Positions 1 to 11,040 of a stretch of 63,392 bases of DNA are shown here, piece by piece. The stretch spans positions 1-63,392 of the forward strand of contig JAFSRZ010000013.1 in the NCBI GenBank assembly GCA_017445875.1. The letters are read 5' to 3'. Position 1 is the stretch's first letter. Every line of letters begins with the position of its first letter. The notes below the pieces were generated by a model that saw only the letters and a list, made by a program, of their open reading frames with translations, made no database searches and was not told the origin of the DNA. Source of the DNA: Oscillospiraceae bacterium. GTDB taxonomy: Bacteria; Bacillota; Clostridia; Oscillospirales; Oscillospiraceae. Made by a program: the position numbers and the translations under genes.

Positions 1-733
1 ACCAACAGGCGGCGGCGCAGTATCCGAAGTCAGATTCGCCGCTTCTCAGGGAGGGCCTAAAAATCCTCTGAAGGGCACATCGATGAAACCCGTGGTGTCT
101 GCTTGGTACGCCCAGTTCCGGGTGGATGCTGGGGGGAAGCGCGGCAGTGTCACGCCCTGTCTGAACGTGCCATCCGTAAGGGCGACCGTACCGGTCAGCG
201 GCACAGTCAGCCGTCGCGGCGGACGGGACAGGCAACGGACACCGGTCCGCTTGCGGACTCAGGGCGCCGGTCAATGGCATGGCCGACCCGACCCTGTTTC
301 CGTGGAGACCCGTTCTTGTGCGCGGACGTACTCCCCGCGTGGTATTTCGGCCCGCGTACGAAACGGATTTGGAACCCGCGTCGCGGTGTAAAAGCTGTGC
401 GCGGTCGTAGCCTGCCTTGCGTGGGACGGGTGGATAGAGGACCTACGCGGCGCTGCTCTGGCCGGAGCGGCGCTGTGATTGCCTCTTGAAACCCGCCCTG
501 CAAAAGAGGCTAAAGAAGCGGACGGACTGGAGTGGAAATCACCTCGGCTGTCCATGACGGGGACGGGGCGGAGATTGCAGTACGGACTCAGTGGCAATCG
601 GGCAGCGCGGAGGGCGACGCCGCGCCGGAACGCTGAAAGGGGAACCGCCTTCACGGCAACGGAAGGCGCGTTCCGGGGAAAGCCAGCCCGACCTAAGCCG
701 TAAGATTAATCTGTCCCGCCGCCGCCGCCTGTT
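1..733 (+). ncRNA. ole: OLE RNA (ornate large extremophilic RNA), probable
   Basis: No believable coding sequence is present: short open frames overlap on both strands without ribosome binding sites. Bases 3-17 are the exact reverse complement of 717-731, a perfect 15-bp helix that closes the whole segment. Inside are further hairpins: 245-258; 450-458 with 465-473; 605-610 with 620-625; and 641-652 with 662-674. The gene order RNA, small polytopic membrane protein, dxs, tlyA, nadK, recN matches the known OLE locus, where OLE RNA (about 600 nt) lies beside oapA and isoprenoid genes. OLE RNA binds OapA at the membrane and is linked to growth under cold, ethanol and magnesium stress. The exact ends and a covariance-model match are not verified, and the promoter must lie left of the window. 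The identity rests on structure and neighbours rather than on remembered consensus sequence. Confidence 0.82.
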
Positions 734-777
734 GACTGTAATGAAATGAACTGTGACATAAAAAGTGAGGTTGCGCT

Positions 778-1341
778 TTGGGAAGTCAGAGACAGCGTAA
801 GAAAAAGGAACCGTCGTCGCCGGTACGCTGGGCGGCGGTCGTGTTCTGTCTGGCGGTAGTGGTGTCGGCGGGACTGAGCCTGACTTCGGAGTTTCTATTA
901 TCGGGGGCGGGACTGGTTTTAGCGGTGTGTGTCCTGCTTCTGTTCATCCTGCTTGGGATTTTGTTTGATATCATCGGCGTGGCGGTGACGGCGGCAGACC
1001 CCCGCCCGCTCAACTCCATGGCGGCGCACAAGGAACGCGGCGCAAAGGAGGCCTTACGCCTCGTCAAGAACGCCAACCGCGTTTCAAGTATCTGTAATGA
1101 CGTTGTGGGCGACATTTGCGGTATCGTCAGCGGCGTGACGGGCGCGGTGATTGTCACGCGGATTTGTCAGAGGTTCGGCGCGGCGTCGATACCGGTTTCC
1201 GTGGGCGTCACGGCGCTGATATCCGGCCTGACTATCGGCGGGAAGGCGTTGTCGAAAACATTCGCAATCCGGCGCGGCACGGATGTCATTTACTGGGTGG
1301 GGCGGTTCCTGTACATCTTCCGCCGCCGCGAAAAACATTGA
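778..1341 (+). CDS. oapA: OLE-associated membrane protein OapA
   Basis: This 187-aa polytopic membrane protein is the probable OapA, which anchors OLE RNA to the membrane. A basic N-terminus (residues 2-11) is followed by hydrophobic segments near residues 18-40, 42-68, 108-128 and 136-155. The central conserved stretch includes NDVVGDICG with a DxxxD motif (D108, D112), a feature reported for OapA. The segment from about residue 63 to 125 looks to me like part of a DUF21/CNNM magnesium-transporter domain; that is inference. Start chosen: TTG at 778, about 8 nt after GTGAGG. It lies 45 nt beyond the end of the RNA and 18 nt before dxs, so it is probably cotranscribed with both. Confidence 0.82.
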   Translation: MGSQRQRKKKEPSSPVRWAAVVFCLAVVVSAGLSLTSEFLLSGAGLVLAVCVLLLFILLGILFDIIGVAVTAADPRPLNSMAAHKERGAKEALRLVKNANRVSSICNDVVGDICGIVSGVTGAVIVTRICQRFGAASIPVSVGVTALISGLTIGGKALSKTFAIRRGTDVIYWVGRFLYIFRRREKH

Positions 1342-1359
1342 CCGTGGGAGGGCTTGTGT

Positions 1360-3288
1360 ATGTTGTTGGAATCCATTCATTCTCCCGCGGACTTGAAGGC
1401 GCTGGACACGCGACAGCTTCCGGCGCTGTGCGCGGAACTGCGTCAATTTTTAGTGAACCGCGTTTCCCGCACGGGCGGACACTTGGCCTCGAATCTCGGC
1501 GTTGTGGAGCTGACAGTAGCCATACACCGCGTGTTCGATACGTCACAAGACCGCCTTGTGTTCGATGTCGGACACCAATGTTATGTCCACAAGGCGCTGA
1601 CCGGGCGTCAGGAACTCTTTTCGACGTTGCGGCAGTTTCAGGGGCTGTCCGGGTTCCCGAAACCTTATGAGAGCGTACACGACGCTTTCATAGCCGGACA
1701 CGCGTCGAACTCGGTATCAGTCGCGTTAGGCATGGCGCGGGCGCGGACACTCTCCGGCATGGATTACAGTGTCTTGGCGCTCATCGGCGACGGCGCTATG
1801 ACCGGCGGTTTGTCCTACGAGGGCATGAATAACGCCGGGGCTTCCGGGGAACCGCTCATCGTGATTCTCAACGACAACGGCATGTCCATCAATCCGAATG
1901 TGGGCGGGGTGTCGGAACATTTAAGCCATTTACGCAGTAAGCCCGCCTACTATCATTTCAAGAAATATTACCGCAAGATGTTCGGGAAACATCCCGCGCA
2001 GAATCCGCTTTACCGTTTCATTCACAGGGGAAAGACGATTCTGAAACAGGTGATTTTTCCGGGCAGTTCGATGTTTGAGGACATGGGCTTTACGTATCTC
2101 GGCCCCGTCGACGGACACGACATTGAACGGCTTTGCACAGTTCTACAGTGGGCAAAAGATTTGAAAGTCCCGGCGCTTGTCCATGTACGGACGCGCAAGG
2201 GGCGCGGATACGTCCACGCCGAACAGAACCCGGACAGATTCCACGGCCCCGGCCCCTTTGACGTGGACACCGGACGCCCCTTGAAAGCGTCGGGCGCGGA
2301 CTTCTCCCGCGTGTTCGGCGACACCCTGACAGCGTGTGCCGCCGAAAATCCGCGTGTGTGCGCCGTGACGGCGGCGATGTCGGACGGGACGGGGCTTTCG
2401 GGCTTCGCAAAGGCGTTCCCGGAACGCTTCTTTGACGTGGCGATTGCGGAGGGACACGGCGTGTCGATGTGCGCCGGACTTGCCGCGCAGGGCATGATAC
2501 CCGTTTTCGCGGTCTACTCCACATTTCTGCAACGCGGCTATGACATGCTCATCCATGACGTGGCGCTCGAAAATTTACACGTTGTGTTCGGCGTCGACCG
2601 CGCCGGGCTTGTCGGCGCGGACGGCGAAACCCATCACGGGTGCATGGACGCGCTGTATCTGTCACAGATACCGGGGTTTACGGTACTGTGTCCGGCGAAC
2701 TTCGCCGAACTCCGTTCAATGTTGCGTCAGGCGCTGTTCGATGTAAAGACCCCCGTGGCGGTACGCTATCCACGCGGCGCGGAAGGCGCGTTCCGGGCGA
2801 ACACGTCCGGGAAAGCGCTTGTCCGCCTCTGGCCTGATGAATCCGCGTCGCGTTCAGAGGGCGAAAACGTCCCCGCGTCCGGCGAACTCTGGGACACCGT
2901 GGAGAATGTCGGCAACGCCGGGAAAATTATGCTCCTGTCCTATGGCATACTGGTCAATCATCTGTTGGAGGCGGCGCGGCGTCTGGACGCGGAACAGATT
3001 CCCGTGGAAGTCTGGAAACTCAACCGTATTTCGCCGCTGGACGCCGACAAACTGTCAAGCGTATTCGGCGGGTGCCGGATACTGCTTGTGCTGGAGGACT
3101 GTTTCCGTACGGGCTGTGTGGGCGAACGCGTGGGGGCGTGTCTGACGGAACGCGGCACGCCGCCGCGAAAGTTGCTTCTCCGCAACGCCGGGGACAAATT
3201 CGTGTCGGCGGGAAGCGTGCCGGAATTGGAACATCAATTGGGACTGGACGCCGACGGCATTGTGTCGGCGGTTCGGGAGGCGCTATGA
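1360..3288 (+). CDS. dxs: 1-deoxy-D-xylulose-5-phosphate synthase
   Basis: The enzyme condenses pyruvate and glyceraldehyde 3-phosphate to DXP with thiamine diphosphate, the first step of the MEP isoprenoid pathway. The 642-aa length is usual for the family. Visible motifs are the N-terminal RTGGHLASNLGVVEL block, the thiamine-diphosphate motif GDGAMTGG near residue 145, DGHD, and the transketolase-type central and C-terminal domains (AEGHGVSMCAGLA, DRAGLVGADGETHHG). Start: ATG 1360, 7 nt after GGGAGGG; a TTG two codons upstream fits less well. Its stop overlaps the tlyA start as ATGA, so translational coupling is likely. Confidence 0.97.
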   Translation: MLLESIHSPADLKALDTRQLPALCAELRQFLVNRVSRTGGHLASNLGVVELTVAIHRVFDTSQDRLVFDVGHQCYVHKALTGRQELFSTLRQFQGLSGFPKPYESVHDAFIAGHASNSVSVALGMARARTLSGMDYSVLALIGDGAMTGGLSYEGMNNAGASGEPLIVILNDNGMSINPNVGGVSEHLSHLRSKPAYYHFKKYYRKMFGKHPAQNPLYRFIHRGKTILKQVIFPGSSMFEDMGFTYLGPVDGHDIERLCTVLQWAKDLKVPALVHVRTRKGRGYVHAEQNPDRFHGPGPFDVDTGRPLKASGADFSRVFGDTLTACAAENPRVCAVTAAMSDGTGLSGFAKAFPERFFDVAIAEGHGVSMCAGLAAQGMIPVFAVYSTFLQRGYDMLIHDVALENLHVVFGVDRAGLVGADGETHHGCMDALYLSQIPGFTVLCPANFAELRSMLRQALFDVKTPVAVRYPRGAEGAFRANTSGKALVRLWPDESASRSEGENVPASGELWDTVENVGNAGKIMLLSYGILVNHLLEAARRLDAEQIPVEVWKLNRISPLDADKLSSVFGGCRILLVLEDCFRTGCVGERVGACLTERGTPPRKLLLRNAGDKFVSAGSVPELEHQLGLDADGIVSAVREAL

Positions 3289-4097
3289 AACAACGGTTGG
3301 ATGTCCGCATGACGGAAGCGGGGTTAGCCGCAAGCCGTCAGAAGGCGCAGGCGCTTATTTTAGCCGGACTTGTCACGGTCGACGGAAAGCGCGTCGACAA
3401 GCCCGGAACACAGGTCGCCGACGACGCCGAAATTGTTGTCAGGCAAACGCTTTGCCCGTACGTCAGCCGGGGCGGCCTGAAATTAGAAAAGGCTATGGCA
3501 ACGTTCCCGGTTTCGCTTGACTGCGCGGTGTGCGCGGATATCGGCGCGTCAACGGGCGGCTTTACCGACTGCATGTTACAGAATGGCGCGGCGAAAGTGT
3601 ACGCCGTCGATGTCGGCTACGGGCAACTTGCGTGGAAACTCCGCACGGACTCCCGTGTGATTTGTCTGGAACGCACGAACGCCCGCTATCTCTCGCGGGA
3701 ACAAGTCCCGGAAGCGCTGGATTTCGCGTCCGTGGATGTGAGTTTCATTTCGTTGCGACTGATTCTCCCGCCGTTGCGCGGACTGTTGCGCGGCGACGAA
3801 AGCCGCGTTGTGTGTCTGGTCAAGCCGCAGTTCGAGGCCGGACGCGACAAAGTCGGCAAAAAGGGCGTCGTGCGTGACAAGGCCGTACACCGGGAAGTCT
3901 TGGAACAGTTCCTTGTGAACGCGTCCGCGTCGGGGTTCGCGGTCGACGGCCTGACTTACTCCCCGATTCGCGGCCCCGAAGGCAATATTGAATATCTGGG
4001 CTTTCTCCGCCCCGTGCCGGACGGAATCCCCGTGGCGCATACGGTTTCCCCCGGCGAACTCCCCGCGCTTGTCGACGCCTCCCACGAGATTGTATAA
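3285..4097 (+). CDS. tlyA: TlyA family rRNA 2'-O-methyltransferase / hemolysin A homologue
   Basis: A 270-aa protein with an N-terminal S4 RNA-binding domain (residues ~1-60, KQRLDVRMTEAGLAASRQKAQ-like start) and a C-terminal FtsJ/RrmJ-type methyltransferase domain (ADIGASTGGFTDCMLQNGA as the SAM-binding motif, then VDVSFIS). In mycobacteria, TlyA 2'-O-methylates 16S and 23S rRNA and confers capreomycin sensitivity. The longer frame back to 3072 overlaps dxs and is not used; ATG 3285 overlaps the dxs stop. The dxs-tlyA-nadK-recN order is standard in Clostridia. Confidence 0.95.
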   Translation: MKQRLDVRMTEAGLAASRQKAQALILAGLVTVDGKRVDKPGTQVADDAEIVVRQTLCPYVSRGGLKLEKAMATFPVSLDCAVCADIGASTGGFTDCMLQNGAAKVYAVDVGYGQLAWKLRTDSRVICLERTNARYLSREQVPEALDFASVDVSFISLRLILPPLRGLLRGDESRVVCLVKPQFEAGRDKVGKKGVVRDKAVHREVLEQFLVNASASGFAVDGLTYSPIRGPEGNIEYLGFLRPVPDGIPVAHTVSPGELPALVDASHEIV

Positions 4098-4147: not shown

Positions 4148-5023
4148 ATGAATCCTAAAAAAATCATTCTCTGCCCGAACCCAAGCCGGGACTACGGCAT
4201 GAGGACTACCCACGAGGCCGACGCAATTTTGCAAGATATGGGCTTTCAGACGGTAGTCTGTTCACCGTTCCGGGAAGTCCGTCCGAACATGTTCGCGGAT
4301 TATCAGGTCAGGCCGCTGTTGCAGGAAATCCAGAGCGCGTCACTGCTGATTACGTTCGGCGGTGACGGCACAATTTTACATCTGGCGAAACTGGCCGCGC
4401 TTCACAAAATCCCCGTACTCGGAATCAATATGGGCGGACTGGGCTTCATCGCCGAATTAGAGGCGACACAGTTGGACGTTCTCCGCCGCCTCCGCGACTG
4501 GAATCTCAAAATGGAACGCCGGATGATGCTGGACGTGAATGTATTCCGCGACGGGCGGCAGGTCTACACAAATATGGGTCTCAATGACGCCGTAATCCGG
4601 GAAGGTCCCATTTCCCACGTTATTCACCTGAAAATCTATTCGGACGGACGACACTTGACCGATATCGCCGGGGACGGCGTGATTATCTCGACGCCCACCG
4701 GCTCTACGGCGTACTCATTATCGGCGGGGGGGCCTGTGGTCGAACCTGTGTCACAAAGTCTGCTTGTCTGCCCCATCTGCATTCACAACATGCGTTTCTC
4801 GTCGTACGTCCTCGCGCCGGAACACACATTATGGGTCGAACTCGACCGCAACGGACATAAACCGGTGTTTCTGTTCGTGGACGAAAGCCGCGGTTTCGCG
4901 TTGCTCAGCGGAGACCGCGTGGTAGTCCGGCGCAGTCGGCACGTCATTGAACTGGTACGACTGACCGAAAAGAGTTTCTGTGAAATCTTCGCGCAGAAAA
5001 TGCTACCCCCTGAAACTGTCTGA
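4148..5023 (+). CDS. nadK: NAD(+) kinase (ATP-NAD kinase)
   Basis: This 291-aa cytosolic enzyme phosphorylates NAD to NADP. The family signature GGDGT is present (TFGGDGTILHLA, residues ~75), followed by GINMGGLGF and the conserved block DGVIISTPTGSTAYSLSAGGPV around residue 180. The size is normal. ATG 4148 has a GGGAGAAGGG site 7-8 nt upstream. It lies 50 bp after tlyA in the same direction and belongs to the same operon. Confidence 0.97.
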   Translation: MNPKKIILCPNPSRDYGMRTTHEADAILQDMGFQTVVCSPFREVRPNMFADYQVRPLLQEIQSASLLITFGGDGTILHLAKLAALHKIPVLGINMGGLGFIAELEATQLDVLRRLRDWNLKMERRMMLDVNVFRDGRQVYTNMGLNDAVIREGPISHVIHLKIYSDGRHLTDIAGDGVIISTPTGSTAYSLSAGGPVVEPVSQSLLVCPICIHNMRFSSYVLAPEHTLWVELDRNGHKPVFLFVDESRGFALLSGDRVVVRRSRHVIELVRLTEKSFCEIFAQKMLPPETV

Positions 5024-5038
5024 CAGGAGGCCGACATT

Positions 5039-5503
5039 ATGGGCAACTCGTTCAAAGTACGGCGGCGGAGTTCCTTTCAGGCCGGATTAATGCTGTTAAT
5101 GCTGGCGGTGTTCGGCTACGCCAACGACCTGCAAAGCGCACAAAGTACGATGTTCTGGATATTAGCGGGTATTTTCTGGCTTCTGTTCGCGTTCCGAAAA
5201 CCCAATCCACGCAAGGAACGGGAAAACGCCTTCGGACGCGCCGAATTTTACCGCTACTATTTCGGGTCGCTGGAATCGTTCGCGCCGTGGATTCCGTACT
5301 TGCTGTTACTGCTGGCGTTTCTGTTGATGAAGTTCGTACCGTCGGCGCGGTGGGCTGTCTGGACGCTTCTGGGCGTGACGGCGGTCTATGTCATCGTGAT
5401 ATGGTGCATGCTGACGCGCTTCCTGCGGCGCTGGAAACTGGAAATGTCGAAACGCGTTCCGGCTCCGAAAGAACCGTGGACGGGCGCGGACGGTGTGCTT
5501 TGA
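5039..5503 (+). CDS. Unrecognised four-helix membrane protein
   Basis: I do not recognise this 154-aa protein. It has hydrophobic segments near residues 15-30, 36-51, 82-100 and 104-125 and charged linkers (KPNPRKERENAFGRAEFYRYYFG), ending in a hydrophilic tail. ATG 5039 follows an AGGAGG site and lies 15 bp after nadK, and recN starts 9 bp downstream. In many Clostridia and Bacilli this slot holds argR, so the protein occupies the regulator's usual place, and no ArgR-like sequence is visible. Because OLE RNA acts at the membrane, a membrane protein in its operon is worth noting, but a link is speculation. Confidence 0.75.
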   Translation: MGNSFKVRRRSSFQAGLMLLMLAVFGYANDLQSAQSTMFWILAGIFWLLFAFRKPNPRKERENAFGRAEFYRYYFGSLESFAPWIPYLLLLLAFLLMKFVPSARWAVWTLLGVTAVYVIVIWCMLTRFLRRWKLEMSKRVPAPKEPWTGADGVL

Positions 5504-5512
5504 GGGGAAATC

Positions 5513-7183
5513 ATGCTGGAATTGCTTCACATTGAAAATGTCGCCGTCATCGAGGAAACCGAAATCGACTTCCGCGACGGCTTCAACGCCCTGACCGGCG
5601 AGACCGGCGCGGGAAAGTCGATTGTTATTGACGCTTTAGGCGCGGTACTCGGCGGCCGGACTTCCCGTGACTTAATCCGCACGGGCGCGAATAAGGCGCT
5701 TGTCAGCGCGTCGTTTACGGACGTGCCGCCGGAACTCCCCGGCGGTATCACGCCCGACGAGGACGGACTGTTACTCCTGCAACGCGAACTTTCCGCCGAC
5801 GGGCGGAACGTGTGCCGGGTCAACGGACGCCCGGTATCGGTGTCGCAACTGCGGGCGCTCGGACAGGAACTTGTCAACATTCACGGACAGCGCGACGGGC
5901 AACAACTTCTTGACGAAAGCCGCCACGGGGAATATTTAGACCGTTTCGGCGGCACGGACACGCCGTTGTCGGCGTATCGCCGCGACTACGACGCCATGAA
6001 CGCCTTACGCGCCCGTATCCGTTCCCTGCAAATGGACGAGGCCGAACGCGAACGCAAGTTAGACAGTCTGCGCTACCAGATAGACGAACTCGAACGCGCC
6101 GAACTTGTCCCCGGCGAGGAGGAGACATTAACGGCGCGGCGAAATCTGCTCCGCAACGCGGAGAAGTATTTGTCGGCGCTGTCGGAGGCGGATTTCCTGT
6201 TGAACGGCGACGAGAACGCGTCCGGGGCTGTCAGCCAGTTGCAACAGGCCGAAAACGCGCTGTACTCCATCCGCACACTCGGCGACGATTTAGCGGAACT
6301 GTATCAGCGTCTGGAAACGGTACGCTGTGAGGCGTTAGACCTCGCCGAAAGTGTACGCGACCGCCGTTCGGAGTTCGACTTCTCCCCGGAGGAACTGGAC
6401 GCCGTTGAAAGCCGTTCCGACTTGCTGTACCGTCTCGAAAAGAAGTACGGCTCCAGTGTTGAGGAAATGCTGTCGTATCTGGAAACATGCCGCGCCGAAC
6501 TCGACGCCATAGAGACCGCCGACGATACCTTGAACCGTCTACAGTCTGAATACGACGCCGCGTTACAGGCTGTACGGGAATCGGGCGGGCGTCTGACCGC
6601 CGCACGCAAACAGGCCGCGCAAACCTTGGAAGCGCGTATTCTCCGCGAACTCCGCGACTTGGACATGAAAAATATGCGCTTCTCCATCGACTTTCAGGAG
6701 AAAGCGCCGTCCCCGGACGGCCTCGACACAATCCGCTTTTTGATGTCGGCGAACGCCGGGGAGGCCTTGCGGCCTATCGCCCGTATCGCGTCGGGCGGCG
6801 AACTGGCGCGGATTATGCTGGCGCTCAAGAATGTGTTAGCCGAACAGGAAACCGTCTCGACACTTGTCTTTGACGAAGTCGACACGGGCGTATCGGGACG
6901 CGCCGCGCAGAGAATCGCCGAAAAACTGGCGCAAGTCAGCCGACACAAACAAGTCTTGTGTGTGACACATCTGCCGCAACTCGCCGCAATGGCGGACACA
7001 CATTTTTCCGTCGAAAAGGGCGAGCGCGGCGGGCGGACATTTACCGAAGTGCGTACACTCGACCGCGAGGCGCGGAAGCGTGAACTGGCGCGTATCACGG
7101 GCGGCAACAAGGTCACGGAAACACTCCTGCACAGTGCCGGGGAACTGTTGGACGAGGCCAAGCAATACCGCGACGGACTTTGA
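5513..7183 (+). CDS. recN: DNA repair protein RecN
   Basis: A 556-aa SMC-like ATPase that acts early in double-strand break repair. The N-terminal Walker A GETGAGKS (residues ~32-39) sits in the typical LLHIENVAVIEETEIDFRDGFN start. The middle is coiled coil (residues ~155-370), and the C-terminus carries the ABC signature ASGGELARIMLALK and the Walker B TLVFDEVDTGVSGRAAQ. Length and architecture are normal. ATG 5513 has GAGGGG 5 nt upstream. It is the last large gene of the ole-oapA-dxs-tlyA-nadK run. Confidence 0.97.
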   Translation: MLELLHIENVAVIEETEIDFRDGFNALTGETGAGKSIVIDALGAVLGGRTSRDLIRTGANKALVSASFTDVPPELPGGITPDEDGLLLLQRELSADGRNVCRVNGRPVSVSQLRALGQELVNIHGQRDGQQLLDESRHGEYLDRFGGTDTPLSAYRRDYDAMNALRARIRSLQMDEAERERKLDSLRYQIDELERAELVPGEEETLTARRNLLRNAEKYLSALSEADFLLNGDENASGAVSQLQQAENALYSIRTLGDDLAELYQRLETVRCEALDLAESVRDRRSEFDFSPEELDAVESRSDLLYRLEKKYGSSVEEMLSYLETCRAELDAIETADDTLNRLQSEYDAALQAVRESGGRLTAARKQAAQTLEARILRELRDLDMKNMRFSIDFQEKAPSPDGLDTIRFLMSANAGEALRPIARIASGGELARIMLALKNVLAEQETVSTLVFDEVDTGVSGRAAQRIAEKLAQVSRHKQVLCVTHLPQLAAMADTHFSVEKGERGGRTFTEVRTLDREARKRELARITGGNKVTETLLHSAGELLDEAKQYRDGL

Positions 7184-7201: not shown

Positions 7202-7633
7202 GTGCTGATTTCAACGAAAGGCCGCTATGCCCTGCGCGTACTCGTGGACATGGCGGAACATGAAACAGGAAATTTCCTGCCGCTCCGCGATGTCGCCCGC
7301 AGACAGGATATCTCAGAAAAGTATCTGGAAAGCGTCGTAAAGCTGTTAGTCCGGGGCGGGATTCTGGAGGGCTTGCGCGGAAAAGGCGGCGGTTACTGCT
7401 TACGGCGTCCGCCCGACCAAATCCGCGTGGGCGACGTTCTGCGGCTGTGCGAGGGGAATTTGTCGCCGGTATCGTGCTTGGGCGCGGACGCGGTGCCGTG
7501 CGAACACGCCGCCAACTGCCGTACACTGCCCCTCTGGCGCGGCCTTGACCGCGTGATTTCCGACTATCTCGACGAGTACACCATCGCCGACCTCATGCGC
7601 GGTCACGATACCGGAAACGATTATGTCATTTGA
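7202..7633 (+). CDS. Rrf2 family transcriptional regulator, IscR-like
   Basis: A 143-aa winged-helix regulator of the Rrf2 family. It begins with the family signature MLISTKGRYALRVLVDMA and has an HTH around residues 27-60. Three cysteines (C92, C100, C106) are spaced like the [2Fe-2S] ligands of IscR or NsrR, which suggests an iron-sulfur or redox/NO sensor rather than a cysteine-free CymR type. The GTG start at 7202 is preceded by GGAAAGGAG. It follows recN by 18 bp and may be read from the same transcript. Its target is unknown: no cysteine desulfurase or isc gene is nearby, only the secreted subtilase downstream. Confidence 0.9.
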   Translation: MLISTKGRYALRVLVDMAEHETGNFLPLRDVARRQDISEKYLESVVKLLVRGGILEGLRGKGGGYCLRRPPDQIRVGDVLRLCEGNLSPVSCLGADAVPCEHAANCRTLPLWRGLDRVISDYLDEYTIADLMRGHDTGNDYVI

Positions 7634-7650
7634 GAAAGGAGGCTTCTTTT

Positions 7651-10600
7651 ATGCGAAAACGATTTTTGTTGTACGCGCTGTTACTGCTCACGCTGACACT
7701 GTTCGCGTCCGCCGCGAGCGTCGAAACCAGCGACTGGGACTACAACGACACGGAACATGTCTTTTCCTGTGACCTGAATCTGTCCGGCGCGGACATGGAC
7801 GGGCGGATACTCGCGGCACTGTTCGCGGAATCGGGGCAGATGAAAAGCGTGACCGGATATCCCGCCGCCGACACCGTACACCTTGCCGTACCCGGTACCG
7901 ACACCACCGACTATATCCGCGTCTTTTGGACGGACAGTCACCAAAAACCGCTTGCCGCCCCCGCCGTCCTGCGTATGCGCGACAACGGCAAAAAGGCTTA
8001 TGAGGACTTCGAGAACAGTCTGCGAAACTCCAAACATGAAAACCTGACGCAGAGCGGAGACCCGACACGTCTGCTTGTGTCCAGTTCCAAGGCGCTCCCG
8101 TGGGCGGAATACGGCGTCGAGAACGTCATCGCCGGGGCGGACAATTTCTATGTGCTGGAATTTCTCAATTACGCGGACACAAAAGCCTGTAAGGAGGCGC
8201 TCGAAAAACTCCCCTGTGTGCGCTACGCCGTCTATGACGCCGTCATCAAGGTGGACGTGGACGAACCCGGCGCGGCGCTGTTGGACGGTGCCGCGGACGC
8301 CCCGCCGCTTTCGTGGGGCGTCGCGGAAACCGGAATCGGCGAGTACGCCGCCAATCTCAAAGAACGGGGTCTTGACAAACAGGAAGTCATTGTCGCGGTC
8401 GTGGACACCGGCGTAGACAGCGGACATGAATTTCTGACAGGCTGCGTCCTTGCCGGGTACGACTTCTGGGAGAATGACGACACGCCGCAGGATGAAATGG
8501 GACACGGAACCCATGTCGCGGGGACTGTCGTGGACTGTACGCCCGGCATGAATGTGAAAATTCGCCCGGTGCGCGTGGTGAATGGACACAACTACAGTAC
8601 GCCGCTCATCGTTTACCAAGGCATTATGTATGCCGTAGCGCACGGCGCGAACGTTATCAACCTCAGTCTTGGATTCCCCATCAAAACAGAGGGCATAGAG
8701 GTCATTGAGGATGCAATTCAGGCCGCCATTGACAAAAATATTACCGTGGTCGTCGCCGCCTGTAACAAATACACGGACGCGGCGGAATATTGTCCCGCGA
8801 ACATTGAGGAATGTATCACCGTCGCGGCAATCAAGCAAAATAATACCCGTCTGAAACGCGCCGAATTTTCCAATTACGGCAAAGTGGTCGACATCGCGGC
8901 ACCCGGCGCGAAAATAAACAGTTGCATACCGGGAAACAAGTACATTGCGTACAGCGGCACGTCACAGGCCGCGCCGCATGTTTCCGCCGCCGCCGCGCTG
9001 TTGATGTGCGAACGCGGCACCGGGCAGACCCCGTACCAGATTGAGAACACGTTGAAAAGCGCCGCCGACCCGCTCCCCGAAGATACACAGGACGACGAGT
9101 GGAAATACTACAAACGCGACAACCCCGGCGCGTTATGGACGGATTTTCTGGGCGCGGGCTGCCTGAATGCGCGTCCCTTTATCGGCTTCTATGCCCTGCT
9201 CTACGCCGACGGGGAATTTGTGTTCCAGAAGGGCAACACGCCCAACCCCGACAAAACCCTGTCAGCGACGTACCCGGTATCGGTGGCGGGCGGCGGCGCG
9301 CAGTACGCCGCGTGGTACGACAACCGCGCCGCAATCCGCGTTGTCACCTTTGCCGACACCCTGCAACCGCGTTCCACGGCGACATGGTTTCACAGTTGCG
9401 AAAACCTCACGAAAATTCGCGGCCTCGAACACCTCGACACGTCCAAAGTCACGGACATGAGCCGGATGTTTGCAAACTGTACCGCGCTGACAACGCTGAA
9501 CCTGACCGCGCTGGACACCTCCGGCGTCACGAACACGCGGCAGATGTTCAACAACTGTACCGCGCTGGAAACACTGGACTTGACCGGCTGGAACACGGCG
9601 AACGTCACCAATATGGCGGACATGTTCAAAGGCTGTACGGCGCTGAAAACCGTGTGCGCGTCGGACAGCTTCAAAACGGACAAGGTGTCGAACAGTACCG
9701 GGATGTTCGGCGGCTGTACGGCGCTTCCGAACTATGACCCCGCGCATACGGATAAGGCCTACGCCCGTATTAACAATCCGCCTGACGCGCCGGGTTACTT
9801 CACCGACAAAAACGCGCCCGCTGGTGTTTATGCGATACTCTACGGCGACGGGGAACTTGTTTTCCAGTACGGCGACACGCCCGAATCCGGCAGAACTGTC
9901 ACAAATACGTACAAGGTCGATTTGAACGCAGTTTATACAGATGACCACGCGCCGTGGTTTAGTAAGCGGAAATCTATCCTCGTTGTGAACTTTGTAGACA
10001 AAATCAGTCCGACATCTACGGAACGCTGGTTTTATGAGTGCGAAAACTTGAAACATATATACAATATCCGAAATCTGGATACCGCTAACGTTACGGATAT
10101 GAGTGGTATGTTTTCCGGCTGTAGCACTTTGACGGCATTGGATATGTCCTATTTTGATACCTCTAACGTCATAGATATGGGCGGTATGTTCTCTGGCTGT
10201 AGTGCTTTGACAACGCTGGACTTATCTCATTTTAATACTGCTAACGTTATAAATATGTTCGGCATGTTTTCCGGCTGTAGCGGCTTGACCTCGCTGGATG
10301 TGTCCCACTTCGATACCGCTAACGTCACGGATATGAACCTTATATTTTACTATTGTAGCGGATTGACAGTGCTGGATTTGTCCCGTTTTAATACCGCCAG
10401 TGTTACGGATATGCAAGGAATATTTAGTTGCTGTTTCAACCTGAAAACAATCTATGCTTCCGAAAAATTTACAACCGTACTCGTGATACCGGGGGATTAT
10501 GGTAGCAGTAGAAATATGTTCTTATCGTGTACAGCATTAATCGGCGGCAACGGCACCAAGTACGACAGCGGTCACACCGACAAAGCGTACGCCCGCATAG

Positions 10601-11040
10601 ACGGCGGCGCGGACGCGCCGGGTTACTTCACCCTCAAAGATGATACGGCAAATCTGAGCGCCGAGGAATTGTTTCATCTGGGAGAGGACTATTTCGACGG
10701 CAAAAACGGCAAGACGCAGGATTACCAGAAATCCCGCTACTATTACGAGTTGTCCGCGCAAAAGGGGAATATGTACGCCATAAACGATTTAGGCTACATT
10801 TACCAGAAGGGCTACGGCGTCTCCGTGGATTACGCAAAGGCGTTGCAACTCTATGAGCAGGCCGCCGACATGGGCAACCCGCACGCGGTGAATAATCTGG
10901 GCTATATGTACGAGTACGGCTTAGGCGTGACACAGGACTTTCAGAAGGCCAAGACGTATTACGAACAGGCCGCGAACGCCGGAAGCGATAACGCCGCCGC
11001 GAATCTGATTCAACTGCAAATACGCATGATGTTCTCATGA
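7651..11040 (+). CDS. Secreted subtilisin-like (S8) protease fused to BspA-like repeats and Sel1 repeats
   Basis: The protein is 1129 aa with a signal peptide (residues 1-~22, ending ASA). The peptidase S8 domain spans roughly residues 215-510, with the triad D252 (VVDTGVD), H285 (GHGTHVAGT) and S438 (GTSQAAPH). Two blocks of BspA/DUF285-like repeats (NVTDMSGMFSGCSTL type, about 23-25 aa each) lie near residues 510-710 and 730-990, and Sel1-like helical repeats occupy ~1000-1125. ATG 7651 has AAAGGAGG upstream and is preferred to the TTG at 7630. No anchor or LPxTG motif is seen. Bases ~9985-10550, encoding the second repeat block, are clearly lower in GC with different codon use, which suggests recent repeat exchange. 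Substrate and role are unknown; a surface or secreted protease is inferred. Confidence 0.92.
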   Translation: MRKRFLLYALLLLTLTLFASAASVETSDWDYNDTEHVFSCDLNLSGADMDGRILAALFAESGQMKSVTGYPAADTVHLAVPGTDTTDYIRVFWTDSHQKPLAAPAVLRMRDNGKKAYEDFENSLRNSKHENLTQSGDPTRLLVSSSKALPWAEYGVENVIAGADNFYVLEFLNYADTKACKEALEKLPCVRYAVYDAVIKVDVDEPGAALLDGAADAPPLSWGVAETGIGEYAANLKERGLDKQEVIVAVVDTGVDSGHEFLTGCVLAGYDFWENDDTPQDEMGHGTHVAGTVVDCTPGMNVKIRPVRVVNGHNYSTPLIVYQGIMYAVAHGANVINLSLGFPIKTEGIEVIEDAIQAAIDKNITVVVAACNKYTDAAEYCPANIEECITVAAIKQNNTRLKRAEFSNYGKVVDIAAPGAKINSCIPGNKYIAYSGTSQAAPHVSAAAALLMCERGTGQTPYQIENTLKSAADPLPEDTQDDEWKYYKRDNPGALWTDFLGAGCLNARPFIGFYALLYADGEFVFQKGNTPNPDKTLSATYPVSVAGGGAQYAAWYDNRAAIRVVTFADTLQPRSTATWFHSCENLTKIRGLEHLDTSKVTDMSRMFANCTALTTLNLTALDTSGVTNTRQMFNNCTALETLDLTGWNTANVTNMADMFKGCTALKTVCASDSFKTDKVSNSTGMFGGCTALPNYDPAHTDKAYARINNPPDAPGYFTDKNAPAGVYAILYGDGELVFQYGDTPESGRTVTNTYKVDLNAVYTDDHAPWFSKRKSILVVNFVDKISPTSTERWFYECENLKHIYNIRNLDTANVTDMSGMFSGCSTLTALDMSYFDTSNVIDMGGMFSGCSALTTLDLSHFNTANVINMFGMFSGCSGLTSLDVSHFDTANVTDMNLIFYYCSGLTVLDLSRFNTASVTDMQGIFSCCFNLKTIYASEKFTTVLVIPGDYGSSRNMFLSCTALIGGNGTKYDSGHTDKAYARIDGGADAPGYFTLKDDTANLSAEELFHLGEDYFDGKNGKTQDYQKSRYYYELSAQKGNMYAINDLGYIYQKGYGVSVDYAKALQLYEQAADMGNPHAVNNLGYMYEYGLGVTQDFQKAKTYYEQAANAGSDNAAANLIQLQIRMMFS

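Follow-up and report, generated by a model that had tools for sequence, protein, structure and literature searches.

The locus described here raises two questions: what is encoded by the stretch that precedes a small membrane protein gene at the very start of a contig, and in what respect, if any, does it depart from its counterparts in other bacteria? The DNA analyzed (the whole stretch of 63,392 nt, hereafter the window) belongs to a 1.41-Mb metagenome assembly of a rumen Oscillibacter that was judged to be 77% complete.

OLE RNA and oapA in a rumen Oscillibacter

Positions 14-741 of the forward strand match the Rfam OLE covariance model (RF01071) with 337.4 bits (E 1.9e-95, gathering cut-off 50), and the genome holds one match to this model only (C40:1-741, model positions 1-616). 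Bases 3-17 and 720-734 are exact reverse complements, which yields a perfect closing helix (15/15 bp), and because of this exact pairing the RNA (3-734, closing helix to closing helix) appears to be whole, the contig start at base 1 notwithstanding. The identity of the stretch before oapA as OLE RNA is firm; a sequence-only reading of this DNA had proposed both the RNA and its closing helix and had named the covariance model as the check, and on both points it was right. Its statement that the segment has no coding capacity stands in substance, in that none of six open frames tested within the OLE stretch matches a Pfam family at E<=0.1, but not to the letter, as the longest open frame in it reaches 129 aa. 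In comparison with full-length OLE RNAs (RF01071; text of PMC11332333), the window likewise possesses the conserved L4, J4a/5, P5 loop, L6, J6/7, cs regions and 3' domain, and likewise adjoins oapA in the dxs-tlyA-nadK-recN cluster. Both contacts of the OLE dimer described in the text of PMC12286853 have their counterparts in the letters, namely L4 (CCUAAAAAU, 56-64) for the A-A bridge and a GGCC palindrome (460-463) at the position of the L9.3 kissing loop. The end of P4a with J4a/5 (GGGCACAUCGAUGAA, 73-87) forms the 5' half of both published k-turns, the P6 stem occupies 255-301 with L6 (AAUGGCAU) at 273-280, and J6/7 (GUGGAGACC, 302-310) is the 3' half of k-turn 1b; all of these lie on the forward strand.

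The window's RNA is also distinct from OLE variants 1 and 2 (the TANB77 and RF39 types), which according to the text of PMC11332333 have lost P7-P9 or P7 and P8. Like these, it comes from a gut bacterium in which some protein partners appear to be missing, but it has instead acquired an additional stem between P5 and P6, and its J6/7-to-J8/9 spacing of 106 nt is the same as that of full-length relatives, which assigns it to neither variant. Apparent half matches in three other genomes (G184, G234 and G203) were considered as truncated variants and rejected, as all lie at contig ends. More generally, several draft assemblies have contig breaks within OLE or at its edge (the start of the window; L039, L041, L042, L043, L049), which can mimic truncated variants in surveys.

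The oapA gene (778-1341, forward strand, TTG start) begins 44 nt past the closing helix and encodes a 187-aa CNNM-like membrane protein with D-x-x-x-D at residues 108-112, a motif described in the text of PMC11332333 as distinctive of OapA. The protein matches the CNNM domain (PF01595) with 34.7-35.4 bits against a cut-off of 28.4, and its motif, D-V-V-G-D, is invariant across 37 aligned relatives, so the earlier assignment of this protein as OapA is borne out. A simple hydropathy scan shows overlapping hydrophobic stretches, in keeping with several membrane spans. Full MpfA-type proteins have a CNNM-type membrane domain too, but those of this family score 102-187 bits to it, whereas OapA is a stand-alone protein of 187 aa at 34.7 bits. 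The closest named relatives are the OapA proteins of four rumen Oscillibacter assemblies (L052-L055; 94, 84, 83 and 86% identity) and that of the isolate Oscillibacter sp. PC13 (L061; 64%). Among 50 fetched Oscillospiraceae loci besides the window, the motif detects OapA in 49, and the exception (L043) ends near its OLE.

Downstream on the same strand follow dxs (1354-3288; TIGR00204, 644.9 bits), a tlyA-family methyltransferase gene (3285-4097; TIGR00478, 267 bits), the NAD kinase gene (4148-5023), a gene for a 154-aa membrane protein in the usual argR slot (5039-5503) and recN (5513-7183; TIGR00634, 532.3 bits). The four genes that had been named from sequence as coming next are thus all present, though with the 154-aa protein between nadK and recN. 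Further along, at 7630-11040, lies a 1136-aa frame that by eye is subtilase-like, with BspA-like "surface protein" and Sel1-like repeats. The spacing between OLE and oapA is expanded to roughly 2.3-2.5 kb in two other loci (L050 3667-6167, genome G029; L042 349-2679, genome G234); in L050 the gap is filled by a 788-aa frame that by eye resembles an ABC solute-binding lipoprotein, and its congener L051 has the usual spacing.

The sequence-only reading had also held that this occurrence would extend the ecological range of OLE. This does not stand, as the text of PMC11332333 already reports OLE in 2,822 Bacillota genomes, with two uncultured gut clades named among them, and as we find OLE in 87 of 300 sampled Oscillospiraceae genomes and as this gene order recurs in Pusillibacter faecalis, an isolate from the human gut. 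Within broader samples, which overlap one another and the family sample by a few genomes, OLE is present in 91 of 295 genomes at the level of the order and in 151 of 391 at that of the class. OLE beside oapA is ordinary for gut Clostridia, and the gut habitat is not new. The P. faecalis MM59 locus (L432 8001-11098) comprises an OLE-like match, a CNNM gene, dxs, tlyA, nadK, argR, recN and tyrS on a 504-kb record labelled plasmid (NZ_AP023421.1); this replicon, annotated as a conjugative plasmid, is a second chromosome or a matter of labelling. A mobile origin of the RNA was considered and rejected, the phage collection having given no match and the single plasmid match being this kind of housekeeping cluster.

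A hairpin arm in place of J5/6

The unusual feature of the window's OLE RNA, and one that is firm, is an extra hairpin arm that replaces the J5/6 joint (usually UUAAGG); it is a structural variant of a known RNA, and one that the sequence-only reading had passed over. The arm spans 116 nt (137-252, forward strand), is closed at its base by AAGCG (137-141) paired to CGCUU (248-252), stands where full-length OLE has UUAA, and accounts for a length of about 730 nt where some 600 are usual. Could such a segment be an artefact of assembly or alignment at a contig edge, with no helix to it? The window does start at a contig start, and the Rfam alignment shows the segment as an unmodelled insert. However, the same segment lies well inside longer contigs of the sister species (L052, L055), and short arms occur in the isolate PC13, which refutes the artefact for the arm as a class and leaves it extremely improbable here.

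The distribution of the arm was established from the region between J4a/5 and L6 (AAYGGCAU), which could be placed in 316 of 331 OLE rows. The spacing between the P5 loop and L6 is 46-50 in ordinary (linear) RNAs and at least 61 in the arm type. By this measure the arm is present in 58 of 82 parsed Oscillospiraceae genomes, in all three genomes of family f8, in 8 of the 12 of family f10, and in 31 of 73 named loci, a count that includes one misplaced row (L110). The same row is counted among the 88 arm rows used below and is absent from the 86 with J6/7 and from the 76 used for covariation. No arm was found in 67 rows from 12 other families of Oscillospirales, nor in 79 parsed rows from 46 families outside the order, for which 80 of 148 OLE matches in the class sample were fetched.

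The arm typically takes the form GGGGG-AAGCG...CGCUU-GC in the place of UUAA. Its best basal stem averages 6.7 bp as against 3.8 in shuffled sequences, and reaches at least 5 bp in 77 of the 88 arm rows (L110 included). The 33 distinct basal stems (76 arm rows from Oscillospiraceae and the named loci) are 91% paired, compared with 72% (sd 1.8) after shuffling. None of 1000 partner shuffles reached the observed pairing and double changes are found at five of the six pairs, a test that related rows inflate. The arm is firm and its helix is supported by covariation. The loop and tip are free in length and in sequence, while the basal stem is conserved.

In a tree built from the OLE RNA minus its junction (182 rows), the state of the arm changes at least five times, two of these within Oscillospiraceae. 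The outgroups are linear, which suggests gains of the arm in f1, in f8 and twice in f10 (one of the latter being a single long-branched genome), together with either one return to the linear state in f1 or two gains in that family. Because a later tree of the arm rows groups all of the f10 arms together, three to five gains is a fair statement. No description of the arm was met with in the passages of text consulted from PMC11332333, PMC12054373, PMC12265935, PMC9723947, PMC12286853 and PMC10898510, and a legend in PMC12265935 that names common OLE variations lists only those from J6/7 to P8.

The P5/P6 junction and the two k-turns

The joint that the arm replaces is one half of a proposed protein-binding site, and the literature on this junction is divided. 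In the text of PMC9723947 the OapC site is proposed to be k-turn 1a, formed by J4a/5 with J5/6; Kretsch et al. (text of PMC12286853) saw the k-turn between J4a/5 and J6/7 (k-turn 1b); and Wencker et al. (text of PMC12054373) treat k-turn 1a, k-turn 1b and the plain P5/P6 fold as three mutually exclusive states of the region from J4a/5 to J6/7. As compared with these published k-turns, the window keeps J4a/5, the 5' half common to both, as well as J6/7 for k-turn 1b, whereas the J5/6 half of k-turn 1a is gone from arm-type RNAs.

We compared the junction across 286 distinct rows (198 linear and 88 arm, with J6/7 located in 186 and 86 of these), with the registers of both k-turns taken from the text of the papers and the general k-turn rule. 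The dinucleotide AA or GA that precedes the P6 shoulder is found in 158 of 186 linear rows and in none of the 86 arm rows, the left shoulder GG in 157 of 186 as against 43 of 86, and both C-helix pairs of k-turn 1a are possible in 170 of 186 as against 32 of 86. The core of k-turn 1b (the G.A tandem and the C85 pair) is retained in every row of either type (186/186 and 86/86), a retention that is partly built in because the J6/7 motif (GGAG-like) helped to place the rows; on a recount, 86 of the 88 arm rows and 185 of the 198 linear rows have GGAG[AG] in position, and all 88 and all 198 have the looser GAG[AG]. The P6 base pairs are likewise retained in 83, 82 and 75 of the 86 arm rows, with varying letters and many pair types. 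The second k-turn 1b pair (U84 with the A or G of J6/7) is possible in 178 of 186 linear rows but in only 47 of 86 arm rows, so that k-turn 1b, too, may have changed. As its 3-nt bulge, GAU is found in 181 of 186 linear rows, and UGU predominates among arm rows (48/86); the window and its genus retain GAU. Speaking against the reading that follows, family f8 combines the arm with OapC and the AUCGAUGA sequence.

That arm-type RNAs have, to judge from their letters, given up k-turn 1a is well supported, and the core of k-turn 1b is kept in them. Mechanistically, the arm would take away the partner strand of k-turn 1a and would release the P6 base to vary like any ordinary helix, so that k-turn 1b would be the k-turn still available, and the junction would presumably no longer switch to k-turn 1a. 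Taken as a whole, we regard it as highly probable that the window carries a complete OLE RNA and oapA in a rumen Oscillibacter, with the J5/6 joint replaced by an arm and k-turn 1b left available. Arm-type RNAs amount to naturally occurring mutants in which the 1a half is gone and the 1b half remains. In vitro, they can therefore discriminate between the two k-turn models, and could show which letters serve which fold.

Protein partners and the enlarged arm

The window's genome encodes OapB as a 94-aa protein between map and infA, which matches PDB 7k9b_A ("OLE-associated protein B") at 2.5e-6; a search with the Pfam KOW model returned L24- and NusG-sized frames only, and the protein was recognized by its infA synteny and the PDB match. 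The sole CNNM match in this genome is OapA. The text of PMC11332333 reports that MpfA-type proteins anticorrelate with OLE, and our counts repeat this within one family: among the Oscillospiraceae genomes examined, an MpfA-type CNNM protein is found in 9 of the 45 with OLE and in 28 of the 30 without it. By analogy with other species, OLE most likely acts here as it does elsewhere, namely as a dimeric RNA that OapA anchors at the membrane and whose 3' domain carries OapB; published work in those species suggests that it takes the place of an MpfA-type exporter in stress and metal homeostasis.

OapC is distributed less evenly. PF01248 and rpsL were searched in the same 80 of the 87 OLE-positive Oscillospiraceae genomes and the tables read by hand; an L7Ae protein stands just before rpsL in 40, is missing from this place in 29, and is undecidable in 2, with no rpsL match in the remaining 9. 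By RNA type, OapC accompanies 20 linear RNAs and is missing beside 1, and accompanies 20 arm RNAs and is missing beside 27, with one genome unparsed (two labels were assigned by hand). In six of the negatives (G266, G177, G227, G181, G111 and G176) rpoC is followed by rpsL and no L7Ae gene intervenes, and among the rest there are some in which rpsL has other neighbors. A profile built from 18 Oscillospiraceae OapC proteins found none in any of the 29 negatives; it scored 72-135 bits in 14 genomes, with one further genome marginal at 20.6. Within f10, no OapC was found in any of the 8 arm genomes or in 3 of the 4 linear ones; f8 is positive in all three of its arm genomes.

The 116-nt arm is common to the window and four sister species (L052-L055). 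The five enlarged arms fold as one long interrupted rod with well-kept outer pairs, double changes at 3 of 61 pairs and a tip that is not retained in L053; the folding energy of the window's arm segment is ordinary (z -1.1). Neither PF01248 beside rpsL nor the OapC profile finds OapC in these five genomes, of which the window's is 77% complete, a figure that applies to it alone. By comparison, OapC is present in 7 of 7 testable short-arm Oscillibacter congeners; five of the seven contributed sequences to the profile, but PF01248 next to rpsL had already revealed all seven. Neither rpsL nor OapC was seen in G947 and G948, two more short-arm relatives, and these were set aside. Across 62 arm rows, long arms (spacing of at least 75) are OapC-negative in 19 of 19, and short arms are positive in 25 and negative in 18 (Fisher 8e-6). 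When corrected for kinship, about two of six independent pairs differ in OapC, both in the expected way (sign test p 0.5). For the presence of the arm as for its length, the independent contrasts with OapC are too few to reach significance. The exclusion of OapC by long arms is a pattern that is suggestive only, its tree-corrected support being weak; if the two do truly exclude each other, growth of an RNA and loss of a protein in one RNP could be traced across species.

How might such a pattern arise? The bolder account is one of functional replacement, in which the arm, above all when enlarged, shapes the P5/P6 junction on behalf of OapC and the protein could be lost. The counts over the 62 rows favor it, and two within-clade contrasts agree (the window's clade with the other Oscillibacter, and G080/G290 with G209). 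However, the genomes are not independent of one another, short arms occur both with OapC and without, OapC is missing beside three of the four linear f10 RNAs, and in some OapC-negative genomes OLE has grown outside J5/6 as well; we consider replacement unlikely.

The cheaper account is one of relaxed constraint, whereby the loss of OapC allows neutral insertions to accumulate in the junction and the outer stems and the long arm has no job. It is cheaper because OapC-negative RNAs grow elsewhere too: the longest Oscillospiraceae OLE RNAs (833-859 nt; G105, at 833 nt, G266 and G008) are all OapC-negative and have gained length at other places. The free variation of loop and tip over a kept basal stem is also consistent with it, whereas the retention of the rod in five species speaks against it, as does the strong covariation of the basal stem also where OapC is present, by which the arm itself is not neutral. 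We place this account at somewhat short of an even chance. On the main reading, the long arm and OapC would probably not share the junction; in the window's clade the arm has grown to a 116-nt rod and OapC is not found.

A similar question attaches to ArgR. An ArgR motif lies between nadK and recN in 57 of the 59 loci that reach both genes (58 OapA loci and the P. faecalis record), the two exceptions being L052 and L055. At the cluster, which is the place that was read, argR is missing from the window as well (L053 and L054 end before it), and these three, the window, L052 and L055, share the same conserved 154-aa membrane protein in its slot, one that has no Pfam or NCBIfam match above the cut-off. 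According to the text of PMC10898510 and PMC12265935, pull-down experiments show ArgR bound to OLE, and the two ole-cluster genes tied to the RNP are argR and oapA. It is conceivable, though we hold it to be quite unlikely, that an RNA domain took over from proteins in this clade, the rod fixing the P5/P6 junction in one state and rendering OapC, and perhaps the ArgR of the cluster, dispensable. Were this so, OLE would exist in a switching form (UUAAGG) and a locked form (the arm).

Growth of the OLE RNA at sites other than J5/6 takes more than one form among these genomes. In G266 (L037) some 120-130 nt have been added in the 3' domain, and the RNA of G008 (L039) is longer by about 150 nt between J6/7 and J8/9, with a further gain of about 65 nt in its 3' domain.
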